Assembly: GCA_913052275.1 (NCBI GenBank)
Contig: CAJXDX010000003.1
Location: forward strand, 1-36,078
Source of the DNA: an uncultured Pseudomonadota bacterium
GTDB taxonomy: Bacteria; SAR324; NAC60-12
Direction of reading: 5' to 3'
DNA: 36,078 bases
Below are positions 7,297 to 28,552 of the stretch, piece by piece (position 1 is the first letter of the stretch; every line of letters begins with the position of its first letter). The notes beneath the pieces are model-generated. The model was not told where the DNA came from, made no database searches, and worked only from the letters and a program-made list of their open reading frames with translations. Made by a program: the position numbers and the translations under genes.

Positions 7297-7749
7297 ATGC
7301 CCGTGTTTGATGATATGGAATTGAGCAGTTCTGATGTGGAACTGATTGCTGAGATTAATGATGCACTTGTGCGATTTGTCAAATCTGAAGAGACTCATCT
7401 GCAACTGGAACCTATGAATTCATTTCGCAGACGAATGGTTCATAAAATAGGTACAAAATACAAACTAACTTCTGAATCAACAGGAGAAGGAATAAATCGT
7501 TCAGTTAGTCTGAGGAAAACAGAACTTACAGAAATCCCGGAAAATATAATACAAAATAATGTTATTGATCGGGGAATAGAAATATTTTACGCAAAGCCGG
7601 GGACAGAAATTGTTTTGAGAAAAGACGGCAGCTTCGGTATAGCGCTTAATGAGCGGGAACCCCGGATTCTGGACAGACGTCCTGTTGAAGATGGAGAATT
7701 CCGCATACGTCAAAATAAAATTGTATGCAGGCATGACAGCAACTGGTAA
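7297..7749 (+). CDS. R3H single-stranded nucleic-acid-binding domain protein
   Basis: LEPMNSFRRRMVHKIGTKYKLTSESTGEGINRSVSLRKT matches the R3H consensus (L.PMN..ERR.VH.....Y.L.SES.GEG.NR.V...). Confidence 0.75.
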   Translation: MPVFDDMELSSSDVELIAEINDALVRFVKSEETHLQLEPMNSFRRRMVHKIGTKYKLTSESTGEGINRSVSLRKTELTEIPENIIQNNVIDRGIEIFYAKPGTEIVLRKDGSFGIALNEREPRILDRRPVEDGEFRIRQNKIVCRHDSNW

Positions 7750-7988
7750 GAACCGGGGATTCTTTCCAAATTGTATCTTTCCTTAATCTAACGTACTCCT
7801 TCCTTCCAAATGTAAATATTAGATTTTGTGAATGATTGTCCATTTGCGAATTACATAAAAAATTCACATAACTTCTGAAAAACATTAAATAGCTGATTTT
7901 AAATTCAGACTGTTCAAAACTGCTTATGTTAATAATCATTTGAATGTCTGAACTTTGAAAAAACTTAAATAAAGTACTTTAACCGGTC

Positions 7989-8258
7989 ATGATTTGGACA
8001 TTCGCTGTAATTGTTATCTTGGGGTCAGTAGGAGTGATCTCTTATCCACTGTTCAGGAGCAAACTCCAGAAATATGAGATTCCTGAAAATTATCAACTGG
8101 ATTCCAGTCAAGCTGATTTTTGCCTGACCGCGTTATCTGATTTGGAGGATGATTATGCTCTTGGGCGTTTGTCTGAATCAGATTATCATCAGCAAAAAAT
8201 TTTTCTTCAAAGAAACTATCTTAAACTGCAGAAAAAAGAAGCAGTGAATGAAGATTGA
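7989..8258 (+). CDS. Small membrane protein resembling the N-terminal segment of CcmI/CycH
   Basis: One N-terminal TM helix then ALSDLEDDYALGRLSESDYHQQKIFLQRNYLKL, like the CcmI-type 'L.DLE.D...GKLSE.DY' segment. Confidence 0.5.
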   Translation: MIWTFAVIVILGSVGVISYPLFRSKLQKYEIPENYQLDSSQADFCLTALSDLEDDYALGRLSESDYHQQKIFLQRNYLKLQKKEAVNED

Positions 8259-8268
8259 CAGTTATTTT

Positions 8269-11200
8269 TCAGTTTTTGATTTGGTTATAAAGTTTTAGAG
8301 AATTGTAGCTGAGATTTTTTCCATAATCGGTTGCCGCTAATGATTTCGCAAAATACATTGTCCCCTCCACAGTAGTGAAATAAGGCAGGTTGTGAAGCAA
8401 AGCGACTCGCCTGATATGTGTTGCATCAACTATGCGTTTCCTCCTGCGGGTAGTGTTCACAATCAGAGATACCTCATTTCTTGCAAGCGATTCAAATATG
8501 TTGTCCGGAACATTCCGGTCCAGACTTGTTTTTTCAATTTTTGTGACACCGGCATTTTTTAATACTTTAAATGTTCCGTCAGTTGCCAGGATTTTCATTC
8601 CGGCCTTCTCAAATTCTTTTGCGGCTGGAATCATACCTTCTTTGTCCTGATCAGTAACACCCATGAACACATGCCCTTGTTTAATTTCTGCTTGATATGC
8701 AGCAAACTGAGATTTCATGAAAGCTTCTTCCAGGTTTTCACCGCATCCCATTACTTCGCCTGTTGATTTCATTTCAGGCCCAAGTTCTGTATCCGCACCA
8801 GAAAAACTTACAAAAGGAAAGACTGTTTCTTTTACAGATACCGTATTCGGTGTCTGATAGATAAATCCGATTTCACTCAATTGCTCTCCCAGCATTAACC
8901 AGGTGGCATATTTTGCCAGAGGATGGCTTATAGATTTACTGACAAACGGAATTGTCCTGGAGGCACGGGGATTGACTTCAATCAGAAAAATCTCATCATC
9001 TTGAACAGCGAACTGTATGTTGATTAAGCCTTTAACTTGAAGTTCTTCTGCCAGTACTTTCCCCTGTGCTTCTAATTTTTCCAGTGTATCAGAATGAAGA
9101 TTTTGCGGAGGTAAAATGCATGCACTGTCACCGGAGTGTATTCCTGCACGTTCCACATGTTCCATAATTCCTCCCAACTCAGATTGATTACCATCACTGA
9201 GCAAATCCATATCTATTTCAACTGCCCCTTTCAGAAACTGATCGATCAATACGGGATGCTCCTTCGAGACTTCCACTGCTTCCTTAAAGTATTCAGCAAG
9301 TTGTTCTTTTGATTCTGCAATCATCATAGCTTGTCCTCCCAGCACATAGGAGGGACGTACTAAAAGAGGATATCCAAGTTTTTCGGCAATTTTTTCTGCA
9401 TCATTTAGAGAACGGGCTGTACCATTTTGAGGTTGCCTGAGATTTAATTTTTTTAACATTGCGGCAAACTGTTCTCGATCTTCTGCACGGTCAATACTTT
9501 TGTATGGTGTTCCCAGGATTCTTACACCAGCTTCATGAAGCTGTTTAGCCAGTTTAAGAGGGGTTTGTCCGCCGAGCTGTACTATCACTCCAAGAGGGCA
9601 TTCTAAGTCGATTACATGCATAACATCTTCAAACGTTACGGGCTCAAAATACAGCCGATCTGAAGTATCATAGTCAGTACTAACTGTTTCTGGATTACAG
9701 TTGAGGATTATTGCTTCAAAACCACGTTCTCTTACAGCCCATGAGGCATGAACGCAACAATAATCAAATTCAATTCCCTGACCGATACGATTAGGGCCGG
9801 AGCCCAGAATTAGTACTTTTGCTGTTTCTGTAGGAATAGACTCATTCTCCTCATCGTAAGTTGAATAAAAATAAGGAGTTTCAGATTCAAATTCTGCGGC
9901 ACATGTATCAACCTGTTTGAACACAGGCAGTATATTCCACTCATAACGGAGGTTCTTGATATGGTTTTCGCTTACATTCAATAATTCCGAAATACGCATG
10001 TCAGAAAATCCAAGTCGTTTCCAATTTCTCAATTTAATTGGAGTTATTTCCGACAACTCACTTTTCATGATGACTTTTTCTTCTTCAATCAGGCTTCTGA
10101 TTTGCCGTAGAAACCAGAAATCTATTCCAGTTTGTTCATATAGAGCTTCATCGGACCATCCTCGCCTGACAGCGTCTGCAACATACCAAATACGTTTGCT
10201 GCTTACTGTTTGAAGTTCATGATCCAGGATTTCTTCCGGAGTTTTGTCAGCAGCAGAGTAATCAGGAGGGTTGAGTCCGGAATGTCCTGTTTCCAATGAT
10301 CTGAGAGCTTTTTGAAAAGATTCCCTGAATGTTCTTCCTATTGCCATGACTTCTCCTACTGATTGCATCTGTGTGCCAAGATGGTCATCAGTAAGAGGGA
10401 ATTTTTCAAAGGCAAACCTTGGTATTTTGGTTACTACATAATCAATGGATGGTTCAAAACAGGCAGGAATTTTTTTTGTGATATCATTAGGTATTTCGTC
10501 CAGCGTATAACCAACAGCTAACTTTGTGGCAATTTTTGCAATAGGGAATCCAGTAGCTTTGGAAGCAAGTGCGGAACTTCTTGAAACTCGTGGGTTCATT
10601 TCAATTACTAGAATTTTTCCATCATCTGGGTTAATGGCAAACTGAACATTTGAACCTCCAGTATCAACACCAATTTCCCGCATGATTTTGATCGACAAAT
10701 CCCTCATATTTTGATATTCAAAATCAGTCAGTGTCTGTGCGGGTGCAACAGTAATACTGTCGCCGGTGTGTATTCCCATAGGATCAAGATTTTCTATTGA
10801 ACATACGATGACTGTGTTATCTTTATGATCTCGCATCACTTCAAGTTCATATTCCTTCCAGCCTATAACGGACTGCTCAACCAATACTTCATTCGAAGGT
10901 GATAAGGCCAGTCCATGGGAAACAATTTGTTTTAATTCCTTTTCATTGTGAGCGATTCCTCCTCCGGCACCTCCAAGAGTGAAAGATGGCCTGATAATAT
11001 AAGGAAAAGGAGTTGTTTCGGTAAAAGCTAATGCTTCTTCTACTGAATGCACAATAATGCTTGATGGCATTTCAATGCCGATTTTTGCCATAGTGTTTCG
11101 GAAAAGCTCTCGGTTTTCTGCTTTATTTATTGCTTCAATTGAAGCACCGATCAGCTCTACACCATTACTTTTAAGCACACCTCTTTCGTTAAGTTTAATT

Positions 11201-24582: not shown

Positions 24583-26127
24583 ATGCCTGCTTTAAAAAAT
24601 AAAGTTCAGTTAATGGATACCACTCTGAGGGATGGTGAACAAACTCAGGGCGTTTCATTTACTCCCCCCGAAAAGGCCAATATAGCAAAATCTCTTTTGA
24701 AAAAGCTTCGTGTTGATCGCATTGAAGTAACCTCAGCTAGAATCTCAGAGGGTGAATTAAGTTCTGTACAAAACATTTCAGGTTGGGCCAGTGAAAATGG
24801 GTATTTGGACTCAATCGAAGTTCTGGGATTTATTGACCACAAAAAGAGTGTTGACTGGATAAAGGAAGCAGGCTGCAAGGTGATGAATTTATTGACCAAA
24901 GGCAGTGAGAACCACTGCAGGAATCAATTGCGTAAAACACTTAAAGAGCATGTTGCTGATATAAGGAAAACCATTAAATATGCTAATTCCAGGAATGTTA
25001 ATGTAAATGTCTATCTGGAAGACTGGTCAAACGGGTATCAAAACAGTCCCAAATATGTATTCCAGATGATGGATGCTTTAAAAGATGAAGGCATAAATCA
25101 TTTCATGCTTCCTGACACTCTAGGCGTTTTGTCTCCGGATCAGGTGTATTCCATGCTTAAAGACATGATAAAAAGGTTCCCCTGGGCAACTTTTGATTTT
25201 CATCCGCACAACGATTATGGCCTGGGAGTGGCTAATGTGCTGTATGCCGTCAAGGCCGGGGTAAGGAACGTACACTGCACAATGAATTGTCTTGGGGAAA
25301 GGGCAGGTAATGTTTCTCTTGCAGAAATTGCGGTAGCTCTGCATGACAAACTTGGCATGGAGCTTTCTATTGATGAGTCTAATCTTGCCCCGGTAAGTGA
25401 AATGGTAGAAAGCTTTTCAGGGAAAAGGCTCCCGGATAATGCCCCGATTGTTGGAGAAAATGTTTTTACTCAGACCAGCGGGATCCATGCCGATGGAGAT
25501 AAGAAGGCAAATTTATATCATAATCCAATTGTTCCAGAGCGTTTTGGTCGCAAAAGAAGCTATGCACTCGGCAAAATGAGCGGCAAAGCTTCACTCGCAA
25601 AAAACCTTGAGACACTGGGAATTCAGCTTGTTGAAGAAAATTTGAACAAAGTACTGAAACGTGTTGTTGAACTGGGCGACACAAAAAAATCAATGACAGC
25701 AGCTGACTTGCCCTTCATCATTACAGATGTTCTGGAAACAAGCGAAACTCAACGAATTGAGCTCCTGAATTGTTCTATTTCCAGTGGACTGAACCTGAAG
25801 GCAACTGCCACAATACACCTGAAAATTGATTCAAAGGAGTATCGTGAAGCTGGAAGCGGAAATGGAGGATATGACGCATTTATGAGTGCAGTTAACAAAA
25901 TATTGAAAAAGCTTAATCTTGAGTCACCTGAATTAGTTGATTATCAAATCAGGATACCAAGAGGCGGAAAAACAAATGCTCTGACAGAAGCAATTATCAC
26001 ATGGCAGGTGAATGGGAAACGTCTTCAGACAATCGGAATTGATTCTGATCAAGTTCTTGCTGCAGTGAACGCAACCCTTAAACTGCTGAATTTGCAATTG
26101 TTGCAAAAGGATGTTCAACAACAATAA
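24583..26127 (+). CDS. 2-isopropylmalate / citramalate synthase family protein with C-terminal regulatory domain
   Basis: LMDTTLRDGEQTQGVSFTPPEKANIAK; FHPHNDYGLGVANVLYAVKAGVRNVHCTMNCLGERAGNVSL; QTSGIHADGDKK; LeuA-type regulatory dimer domain. Confidence 0.88.
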   Translation: MPALKNKVQLMDTTLRDGEQTQGVSFTPPEKANIAKSLLKKLRVDRIEVTSARISEGELSSVQNISGWASENGYLDSIEVLGFIDHKKSVDWIKEAGCKVMNLLTKGSENHCRNQLRKTLKEHVADIRKTIKYANSRNVNVNVYLEDWSNGYQNSPKYVFQMMDALKDEGINHFMLPDTLGVLSPDQVYSMLKDMIKRFPWATFDFHPHNDYGLGVANVLYAVKAGVRNVHCTMNCLGERAGNVSLAEIAVALHDKLGMELSIDESNLAPVSEMVESFSGKRLPDNAPIVGENVFTQTSGIHADGDKKANLYHNPIVPERFGRKRSYALGKMSGKASLAKNLETLGIQLVEENLNKVLKRVVELGDTKKSMTAADLPFIITDVLETSETQRIELLNCSISSGLNLKATATIHLKIDSKEYREAGSGNGGYDAFMSAVNKILKKLNLESPELVDYQIRIPRGGKTNALTEAIITWQVNGKRLQTIGIDSDQVLAAVNATLKLLNLQLLQKDVQQQ

Positions 26128-26218: not shown

Positions 26219-27520
26219 ATGCGCCTCTCAACTGCTGAAGGTAACCTGTCCGAAATTTATTTCCCCTTGACAGCAAACCCGGCGGGGTATAACCATTTGT
26301 TGCTGGCAGAAAGTGTTCTTTGGCAATTCCCGGAAACACAATCATTAGTATTCATACTTTCCAACGGCAGACATCCCGACCCATTTAAAACCGTCCAAAT
26401 TCCTCACGCCTCTTTACGTTATGAAATTTTAAGAAGCGCTCTATTAGACTGGTCTGATCCTGAAAATTCGCTTCCGGCCAGATATGCTGATGAATCCGGA
26501 GTTTTGCTTAAATTAGGAAGGAATAACTGTACTATTTCCAGGTGGGAATTATCGTTCAGCCGGCCTTTACGTCTTGCTGATCACGTTCAATATTTTTCAA
26601 CAGAACAAAAAATCGCTTTGATTGTAGGTGCAGATTTGATTCAGCGCATGCTAGATCCAAGAATTTTCACAGATACCGATTTAGCTCAAATAGAAAGTGG
26701 CTGTCTACTGATTGCTGCACCCCGTAATGATATTGATTTAAAACACACTTTACAGCTGATTAAACAAAAAAGAGGTGTGAAATTAACTGTCCTCCAAATC
26801 ACTCCAAGTGTGCTTCCGAAAAAACTGCAAAAATTTTATCAAATTTCATCCACACATATTCGCAAAGCAACACAGGCAGGACATTCGCTGGAGACATTTT
26901 TGCCAGCAAATGCCGCCAGGCATATTTCACAAAACTGTTTATATAACAGGCGGGAACAAATCACTGATTCATATTATTCACATTTAAATGAACACCAGCA
27001 TAGTTGTTTTGAATTGAAGGAACAACTGGAAGCAGCAGCCATGAAACTTCAAAAACATCTTGCACAACGAGCAAAAAACGGACAACCTCACCGCTTTTCT
27101 GTTTTGGAAACAAGCACAGGAGGACAAATTGCTCAAACCTTCACAAGTCTTCCCGGAGCTTCAGAGCACTTTCTTGACGGCAGAATTATCTATGGTCAGG
27201 AGGCTCAAAAGCAATTTTTAGCTGTTCAAGAATTTGAAGATTCAAGCGTATCTCAAACAAGAGCGCAGAATCTTGCCAGAGCAATGCAAAGACATTCTGG
27301 TGCAGATTGGGCTCTTGCAGAAACTGGTATGGCAGGCCCTCCATCAAAAGACAGACACAGCAGGAAAAACGGACAATGTTATCTTGGTCTGGTAATATCA
27401 ACTGAAGTAAGGTATAAGTTTCTTGAGTTTAATCCTTTTCTTACGCGAAAAGAGCATCAGCTGATGTTTGCGATCGAAGCATTGGCTTGGGCGGAAAAGG
27501 AACTACAAATAAAGCGCTGA
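26219..27520 (+). CDS. Fusion of a degenerate NadD-like nucleotidyltransferase domain and a CinA C-terminal (PncC-like) domain
   Basis: N-half: TANPAGYNHLLLAESV, ALIVGADLIQRML, ISSTHIRKATQAGHSLETFLPANAARHISQNCLY (NadD-like). C-half: LETSTGGQIAQTFTSLPGASEHFLDGRIIYGQEAQ...ALAETGMAGPP...GQCYLGL (CinA-C-like). Confidence 0.75.
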   Translation: MRLSTAEGNLSEIYFPLTANPAGYNHLLLAESVLWQFPETQSLVFILSNGRHPDPFKTVQIPHASLRYEILRSALLDWSDPENSLPARYADESGVLLKLGRNNCTISRWELSFSRPLRLADHVQYFSTEQKIALIVGADLIQRMLDPRIFTDTDLAQIESGCLLIAAPRNDIDLKHTLQLIKQKRGVKLTVLQITPSVLPKKLQKFYQISSTHIRKATQAGHSLETFLPANAARHISQNCLYNRREQITDSYYSHLNEHQHSCFELKEQLEAAAMKLQKHLAQRAKNGQPHRFSVLETSTGGQIAQTFTSLPGASEHFLDGRIIYGQEAQKQFLAVQEFEDSSVSQTRAQNLARAMQRHSGADWALAETGMAGPPSKDRHSRKNGQCYLGLVISTEVRYKFLEFNPFLTRKEHQLMFAIEALAWAEKELQIKR

Positions 27521-27529
27521 TTTAAAAAA

Positions 27530-28552
27530 ATGAAAGAATTACTGCAAAAATTGCTGGCATCAGAAGCGCTCAGCTTTGAAGAAGCACGAGATATGATACT
27601 ATGGATCATGAGTGAAGAAGCTGTGTCTGTTCAGGCGGCAGCACTTTTAGCTTTGCTGCAGGCTAAAGGAGTTACTGTTGAAGAAATGGCTGGAGCGGCT
27701 CTGGCCATGAGGGAACGCGCTTCTGGAATAAAAGCACCTGAAAATGCTATTGACACTTGCAGCACAGGAGGAAATGGAATCAGCACCTTCAACATTTCAA
27801 CATGTGCCGCAATAATCGCTGCCGGTGCCGGTGCGGTTGTAGCAAAACACGGCAACCGCAGCAACACAAGAAAAAGCGGGAGCGCCGAAGCACTGGAAGC
27901 GTTAGGAGTGAATATAACTTTGGAACTTGATGAAGTTGAAAAATGCCTTAAGGATTTGGATATTTGTTTTTGTTACGCGATCAATCACCATCCAGCCATG
28001 CGCTTTGCCGGACCAATACGCAAGGACTTGGGGGTTCCCACTGTATTTAATCTGCTGGGTCCCTTAACAAATCCTGCCGGTGCAAAAAGTCAGTTGATTG
28101 GAGTTCCAAATGTTGAGCTGACTTCGAAAATAGCTCAGGTCCTAAAGCGATTAGGCAGCGAACGTGTACTGGTAGTTCATGGACATGACGGTCTGTGTGA
28201 GCTGACAGTCACTTCCCCTACACATGTGGCAGAACTTAGAGAAGGCAATATCAAAGAATATGAAATAACTCCTAAGCAGCTTGGTCTCAAGACGGGAAAA
28301 TTGGAGGAGATAAGCATAGATACTCCTGAAGAAAGTGCCAGGATAATTGAGCGTATTTTTTCTGGAGATGAGAAAGGCACTGCACGTGAAATTGCTCTGG
28401 CAAATGCCGCCGGTGCGTTAGTCGTATCAGGTCAGGTTGAGAATTTGGAAGAAGGTGTAGATCTGGCAGCTAAGACAGTTGACAATGGAAAAGCAGCAGA
28501 AAAACTTAATGATTTAATCAAGTTTTCATGGGCAAACCATCAGGCTTCGTAA
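27530..28552 (+). CDS. trpD: Anthranilate phosphoribosyltransferase (TrpD) family
   Basis: DTCSTGGNGISTFNISTCAAIIAAGAGAVVAKHGNRS...KSGSAEALEALGV...HHPAMRFAGPIRKDLGVPTVFNLLGPLTNPA. Confidence 0.88.
   Translation: MKELLQKLLASEALSFEEARDMILWIMSEEAVSVQAAALLALLQAKGVTVEEMAGAALAMRERASGIKAPENAIDTCSTGGNGISTFNISTCAAIIAAGAGAVVAKHGNRSNTRKSGSAEALEALGVNITLELDEVEKCLKDLDICFCYAINHHPAMRFAGPIRKDLGVPTVFNLLGPLTNPAGAKSQLIGVPNVELTSKIAQVLKRLGSERVLVVHGHDGLCELTVTSPTHVAELREGNIKEYEITPKQLGLKTGKLEEISIDTPEESARIIERIFSGDEKGTAREIALANAAGALVVSGQVENLEEGVDLAAKTVDNGKAAEKLNDLIKFSWANHQAS

Follow-up and report, generated by a model that had tools for sequence, protein, structure and literature searches.

The window analysed here, a stretch of 36,078 nucleotides from a 1.95 Mb SAR324 genome bin (82.8% complete), carries an open reading frame of 433 amino acids with an ATG start and an intact frame (26219..27520), located, as are all the window features described below, on the + strand. 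The encoded protein joins an N-terminal NMN/NaMN adenylyltransferase-like domain (residues 1-245, 26219..26953) to a CinA-C/PncC domain (residues 277-428, 27047..27502) through a variable linker (residues 246-276, 26954..27046), which shows low identity among congeners and falls within a long helix predicted at residues 252-286 in the structural model. The C-terminal domain matches PF02464 (CinA) over residues 277-428 with an E value of 1.1e-24 and 87.3 bits, above the Pfam gathering score of 23.5, and TIGR00199 (PncC) with 55.4 bits, below the cut-off of 68.9 bits. The N-terminal domain matches TIGR00482 (NadD-type) over residues 102-242 with an E value of 3.3e-13 and 50.1 bits, short of the curated cut-off of 112.45, and no COG1058 (MoCF) domain was found in this half of the protein by Pfam or NCBIfam search. 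An AlphaFold2 model built from five sequences reached a pLDDT of 55.7, too weak for an active-site overlay; when this low-confidence model was used in Foldseek, NMN/NaMN adenylyltransferases and CinA structures ranked top. The intact frame and every motif quoted in the initial annotation, which had described a NadD-like/CinA-C fusion with both catalytic motifs apparently degraded, are present in the translation.

Upstream of the fusion gene lies a cimA-like gene for (R)-citramalate synthase (24583..26127), a neighbour common to genera g1 (the genus of the window), g2, g4, g7 and g8. Downstream lies trpD, encoding anthranilate phosphoribosyltransferase (27530..28552; TrpD, 384.7 bits), whose start codon is 9 bp 3' of the fusion, in agreement with the tight spacing noted initially. 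trpD is the downstream neighbour in 16/16 g1 genomes carrying the fusion and is absent from the fusion flanks read in other genera. An operon logic with trpD was considered and rejected, as a neighbour confined to g1 tells little about function.

The N-terminal domain was aligned with E. coli NadD, 13 NadDs of related and control genomes and 37 fusion proteins. PLTANPAGYNH (residues 16-26, 26264..26296) is the family version of the NadD motif GGxFxPxHxGH, with GG replaced by PL or similar, F by A or G and the first His by Gly (Gly23) in all 37 fusion proteins. To our knowledge, the replacements of GG, F and first His together exceed those of any characterised NMNAT. Measured against the superfamily motif GxFxPx[H/T]xxH (PMC12599879), just the invariant Pro21 and the last His (His26) remain, the G, the F and the first H/T being changed in 37/37.

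Beyond this motif, His26, Lys57, Asp139 and Ser211 are invariant across the 37 fusion proteins. T/S11, D/N13, P14, His19 (His26 in the fusion), Asp109 and ISSTxIR are kept from E. coli NadD. Asp109 aligns with Asp139, the last residue of GAD (residues 137-139, 26627..26635), and the phosphate-binding motif is intact as ISSTHIR (residues 209-215, 26843..26863), S210, S211, T212, I214 and R215 of the general pattern ISSTxxR being invariant in a 24-sequence alignment. Lys57 occupies the position of E. coli NadD Arg46, a conservative change, with Lys also in 13/13 of the NadDs compared, those from its own phylum included. It closes a new family signature, SNGxHPDPxK, invariant in the 24-sequence alignment and read here as SNGRHPDPFK (residues 48-57, 26360..26389), at the position of NadD xxxPxHK/R. 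In this regard, the functionally decisive residues of E. coli NadD are His19, Arg46 and Asp109: H19A keeps 0.62% of the activity, H45A keeps 4%, and R46A is impaired more than any other active-site mutant (PMC1249556). The first position of the superfamily motif may be either H or T (PMC12599879), as also in the form H/TxGH, and in cyanobacterial NMNAT-C Ala at either His cuts activity substantially (PMC13036487). Because the first His is not universal in the superfamily, its loss does not by itself amount to a loss of catalysis, although Gly at this position is still unusual. The initial description of this motif as degraded was thus correct as to the replacement of the first His by Gly, but overstated for a domain in which His26, Lys57, Asp139 and ISSTxIR are invariant.

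When a 24-sequence N-domain profile was searched against the PDB, eukaryotic NMN/NaMN adenylyltransferases came first (Chaetomium 9iw1, 1e-11; human NMNAT1, 3e-11), with bacterial NadD at 1e-8 or weaker, and a search with the single window sequence likewise placed eukaryotic NMNATs ahead of bacterial NadD. The NadD-like identity first proposed agrees at profile level with TIGR00482, which all 24 members match (28-68 bits for the fusion among relatives), but eukaryotic enzymes are the best profile matches among solved structures and lie closer than NadD. With bacterial NadD the fusion shares this profile-level match, the second His, the Lys/Arg, the Asp and ISSTxIR, and it differs in its score below the cut-off and in having lost GG, F, the first His, Trp117 and SYT. 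With eukaryotic NMNATs it shares ISSTxIR and GADL...PxxW/F, including a 5-residue stretch that bacterial NadD is without; the family 'PxIF' falls, within this stretch, on the eukaryotic 'PxLW'. The Trp of 'PxLW' stacks on nicotinamide in eukaryotic NMNATs, and Phe150 (26666..26668), which aligns with it and is invariant in the 24-sequence alignment, is its plausible equivalent. Eukaryotic NMNATs are also without the first His, having Thr at that position. Unlike them, the fusion has Gly for the first Thr/His, no GxF, Phe for Trp, the SNGxHPDPxK insertion and a CinA-C partner.

The residues of the bacterial nicotinate pocket are altered in the fusion, the NadD Trp117 column being Pro and SYT being gone. 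These changes, the new SNGxHPDPxK signature and the retention of the fusion in genera with full NadD/NadE might point to an N-terminal domain that acts on another mononucleotide instead of NMN and serves some other cofactor or a modified nucleotide. We regard this as quite unlikely, since the family-level matches are all NaMN/NMN adenylyltransferases and the fused CinA-C domain belongs to an NMN-specific family (PMC3680494).

In the C-terminal domain, ETSTGG (residues 297-302, 27107..27124) places Thr298 at the position of the catalytic Ser31 of A. tumefaciens CinA, and YGQEAQ (residues 325-330, 27191..27208) places Tyr325 at the phosphate-binding Tyr58 and Gln330 at the catalytic Lys63 (PMC5384747). 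The catalytic dyad is replaced in the window protein, as the initial annotation had stated, and the binding positions are kept: Thr369 and Gly370, within ETGMAGP (residues 368-374, 27320..27340; TGMAGPP is 369-375), stand at the oxyanion positions Thr105/Gly106, and Arg410 (27446..27448), aligned with a conserved CinA-C Arg, is probably the counterpart of the phosphate-binding Arg145 (PMC5384747). Among the fusion proteins the Ser31 position is Thr in 32/37, Ser in 4/37 and Ala in 1/37, and the Lys63 position is divided between Lys (18/37) and Gln (19/37, comprising 16/16 from g1, both from g4 and the one from g6). Gly in the N-terminal motif is conserved throughout and Thr at the Ser position nearly so, whereas the change of Lys to Gln is not general, other genera having Lys. 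The phosphate-binding Tyr is retained in all fusions, and the oxyanion Thr-Gly pair throughout g1 except for one deletion.

Both S31A and K63A inactivate A. tumefaciens CinA (PMC5384747), and an alternative CinA mechanism that dispenses with the Ser still requires the Lys (PMC4246079). With the Ser/Lys dyad lost and both mechanisms in need of the Lys, the g1 domain should not deamidate NMN; given its retention of most binding positions, it would instead be a putative NMN binder devoid of deamidase chemistry. It could be argued that CinA-C retains amidohydrolase activity in g1, working through Thr298 and another base within a bifunctional protein, as its oxyanion Thr/Gly, Tyr and Arg are kept, it is the better conserved half and a mechanism without Ser has been described (PMC4246079). 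This appears very unlikely: K63A alone abolishes activity in the A. tumefaciens enzyme (PMC5384747) and the corresponding residue is here Gln, while NaMN would be of no use to cells without NadE. Lys331, adjacent to Gln330, was considered as a substitute catalytic Lys and rejected, being K, R or T within the genus.

Compared with CinA/PncC of T. thermophilus and A. tumefaciens, the fusion shares the PF02464 match above cut-off, the Tyr, the oxyanion Thr-Gly and the probable phosphate-binding Arg, and it differs in having Thr for Ser31, Gln for Lys63 and an adenylyltransferase partner in place of the COG1058 ADP-ribose pyrophosphatase. Two SAR324 relatives have full-length COG1058-CinA proteins (L171 in G018:C9 and L177 in G032:C70) whose CinA-C motifs, AEISTGG and VENLTGG, also look degenerate; we presume that they recall the inactive E. 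coli YfaY class. Fusion of an NMN adenylyltransferase with a domain for NAD recycling has a precedent in the bifunctional NadM-Nudix enzymes of the slr0787 type (PMC3680494), from which the present protein differs both in NMNAT type and in partner domain.

By N-domain profile search, the fusion occurs in 39/41 genomes of the SAR324 order and in 0/11 genomes from sister orders of the class. Its recurrence within the order, with matching substitutions, rules out chance or assembly error. One fusion ORF (L010, in G012:C88) has a single TGA between its domains, which may reflect a sequencing error, a split gene or read-through. Values of dN/dS of about 0.1-0.3 for both domains in most comparisons indicate purifying selection and, together with the intact frames, rule out a pseudogene. 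Between distant congeners, identity is 73% for the C-terminal and 57% for the N-terminal domain. The fusion evolves faster than its neighbours trpD and cimA (57-93% identity, against 81-97% for TrpD), and this rate, along with the deletion in CinA-C of one congener and the internal TGA of another, might suggest a redundant relic drifting towards loss. Such a reading is largely refuted by conservation and seems highly improbable, as the frame is intact in nearly all members across the order, dN/dS is low in both halves and the fusion is the sole NMNAT candidate. Strong purifying selection and the kept ligand positions make CinA-C look repurposed, not decaying. The open-access literature searched contained no earlier account of an NMNAT-CinA fusion or of NAD metabolism in SAR324; the novelty lies in the domain architecture, the motif and the pathway context, the fold itself not being new.

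The NAD genes of g1 were inventoried in 17 genomes (G000-G016, 51-92% complete). Canonical NadD, NadE, NadC, PnuC and NAPRTase were detected in none of the 17, NAMPT was detected in G016 only, and no convincing NR kinase candidate was found in the genus. Weak PF02540 matches were considered as possible NadE; the four loci read and the match in the genome of the window are all GuaA. Likewise, the PF01467 (CTP_transf_like) matches in the window's genome, considered as a possible second NMNAT, are CoaD, RfaE2, HldE-like and RibF, and no other NadD/NMNAT was found there or in the 16 other g1 genomes. With bins taken as independent, the probability that one gene is missing from all 17 by incompleteness alone is about 2e-13. 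The fusion is, from this inventory, the sole adenylyltransferase candidate left for NAD in g1. The initial annotation would be refuted, on its own terms, if this were the only nadD of the genome, and that is the outcome here: canonical NadD was found neither in the genome of the window nor in its 16 congeners.

NadD and NadE are also absent from g4 and g8, and are kept in g2, g3, g5, g6, g7 and most of the second family. The joint absence of NadC, NadD and NadE extends over G000-G016 (g1), G019 and G025 (g4) and G023 (g8), PnuC and NAPRTase also being missing from these genomes. Genera with canonical NadD carry the fusion as well, so NAD synthesis cannot have been the sole ancestral reason for it.

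NAMPT makes NMN. The single NAMPT (NadV; PF18127 and PF04095) of the 17 congeners, that of G016, is encoded at about 7577-8965 of G016:C52 (L120 / L219). In the same genome, NadD and NadE are absent, no other NMNAT was found, and the fusion (L017) has an in-frame deletion of roughly 45 residues that removes the ETGMAGP block of CinA-C. G016 is, for these reasons, a natural test case.

In the tree of the fusion proteins, g8 groups with g4 and g1 in a single clade (97/91), within which g4 and g1 are nested (96/92). NadD and NadE are absent across the whole clade, and within it the change of Lys to Gln is restricted to g4 and g1. Since the clade of the losses is wider than that of the substitution, the simplest reading is that the pathway was lost before the deamidase Lys, as would be expected if NaMN had become useless. 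However, g8 has neither NadD nor NadE and yet keeps the Lys, and g6 has Gln despite having both enzymes. The correlation thus amounts to one event and is suggestive only.

Taken together, these observations lead us to propose, with a probability of roughly 0.45, that the fusion is a SAR324-specific, eukaryote-like NMNAT converting NMN to NAD+, whose CinA-C domain is reduced in g1 to NMN binding. This reading, drawn from sequence comparison, is favoured by the gene losses, the eukaryotic-NMNAT profile match, the invariant residues, the purifying selection, the NAMPT of G016 and the tree. It is opposed by the nucleotide-binding motif, changed at GG, F and the first His in every member, by the loss of activity on mutation of either His in NMNAT-C, by the fact that no route to NMN is seen in g1 (NAPRTase, NR kinase or PnuC, with NAMPT in G016 only), by the retention of the fusion in genera with full NadD/NadE, by the behaviour of g6 and g8 and by the low confidence of the structural model. 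More tentatively, this free-living genus, with a reduced NAD metabolism that lacks NadC, NadD and NadE, may obtain NAD+ solely through this NMN-specific enzyme without the first His/Thr, coupled to a former deamidase turned NMN-binding domain, by scavenging NMN or another amidated precursor.

The same protein could alternatively be a non-catalytic sensor, both halves of which bind pyridine nucleotides and ATP in cells that import intact NAD+, and which regulates neighbouring biosynthetic genes or an enzyme. The loss of GG, F and the first His in one half and of the Ser/Lys dyad in the other, under strong conservation, is compatible with this possibility, as are the coexistence of canonical NadD and the fusion in other genera, where the fusion need not make NAD, and the precursor pathway not visible in g1. 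Nevertheless, the residues at which E. coli NadD tolerates mutation least (PMC1249556) are here invariant, and a pure sensor would have no need of them; NAD-consuming cells without an NMNAT would need to import NAD; and G016 would have NMN made by NAMPT with no other NMNAT to use it. We consider the sensor unlikely. Of the two roles suggested initially, that of a repurposed protein suits CinA-C, with its dyad lost and its ligand positions and selection kept, and in the form of a dead sensor suits the N-terminal domain less; altered chemistry in NAD metabolism fits better, the fusion being the only NadD/NMNAT candidate.

Under the proposed NMNAT reading, the N-terminal domain would catalyse the ATP-dependent adenylylation of NMN to NAD+ by means of His26, Lys57, Asp139 and ISSTxIR, in a eukaryote-like nicotinamide pocket with Phe150 replacing Trp. 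The ancestral CinA-C would have been an NMN-binding deamidase that supplied NaMN to NadD and NadE, and the ancestral fusion would in this way have decided the fate of NMN. Once NadD and NadE had been lost in the lineage of the window, NaMN would have become a dead end; the deamidase Lys would then have changed to Gln. What is left would be an NMN-binding domain whose role may be to hold NMN, to sense it or to channel it to the N-terminal half.

Very few cells can do without NMNAT/NadD, a textbook marker in genome-based reconstruction of NAD pathways. The present findings describe an ocean genus without detectable NadC, NadD and NadE, whose sole candidate is scored below cut-offs by the standard models. 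If the fusion is active, the first His/Thr of the adenylyltransferase motif would be dispensable and eukaryotic NMNATs would have a bacterial relative in SAR324. An active fusion would also exemplify how the disappearance of NadE can be followed by loss of deamidase chemistry in a still-conserved domain, and would indicate a marine dependence on scavenged NMN-type precursors.
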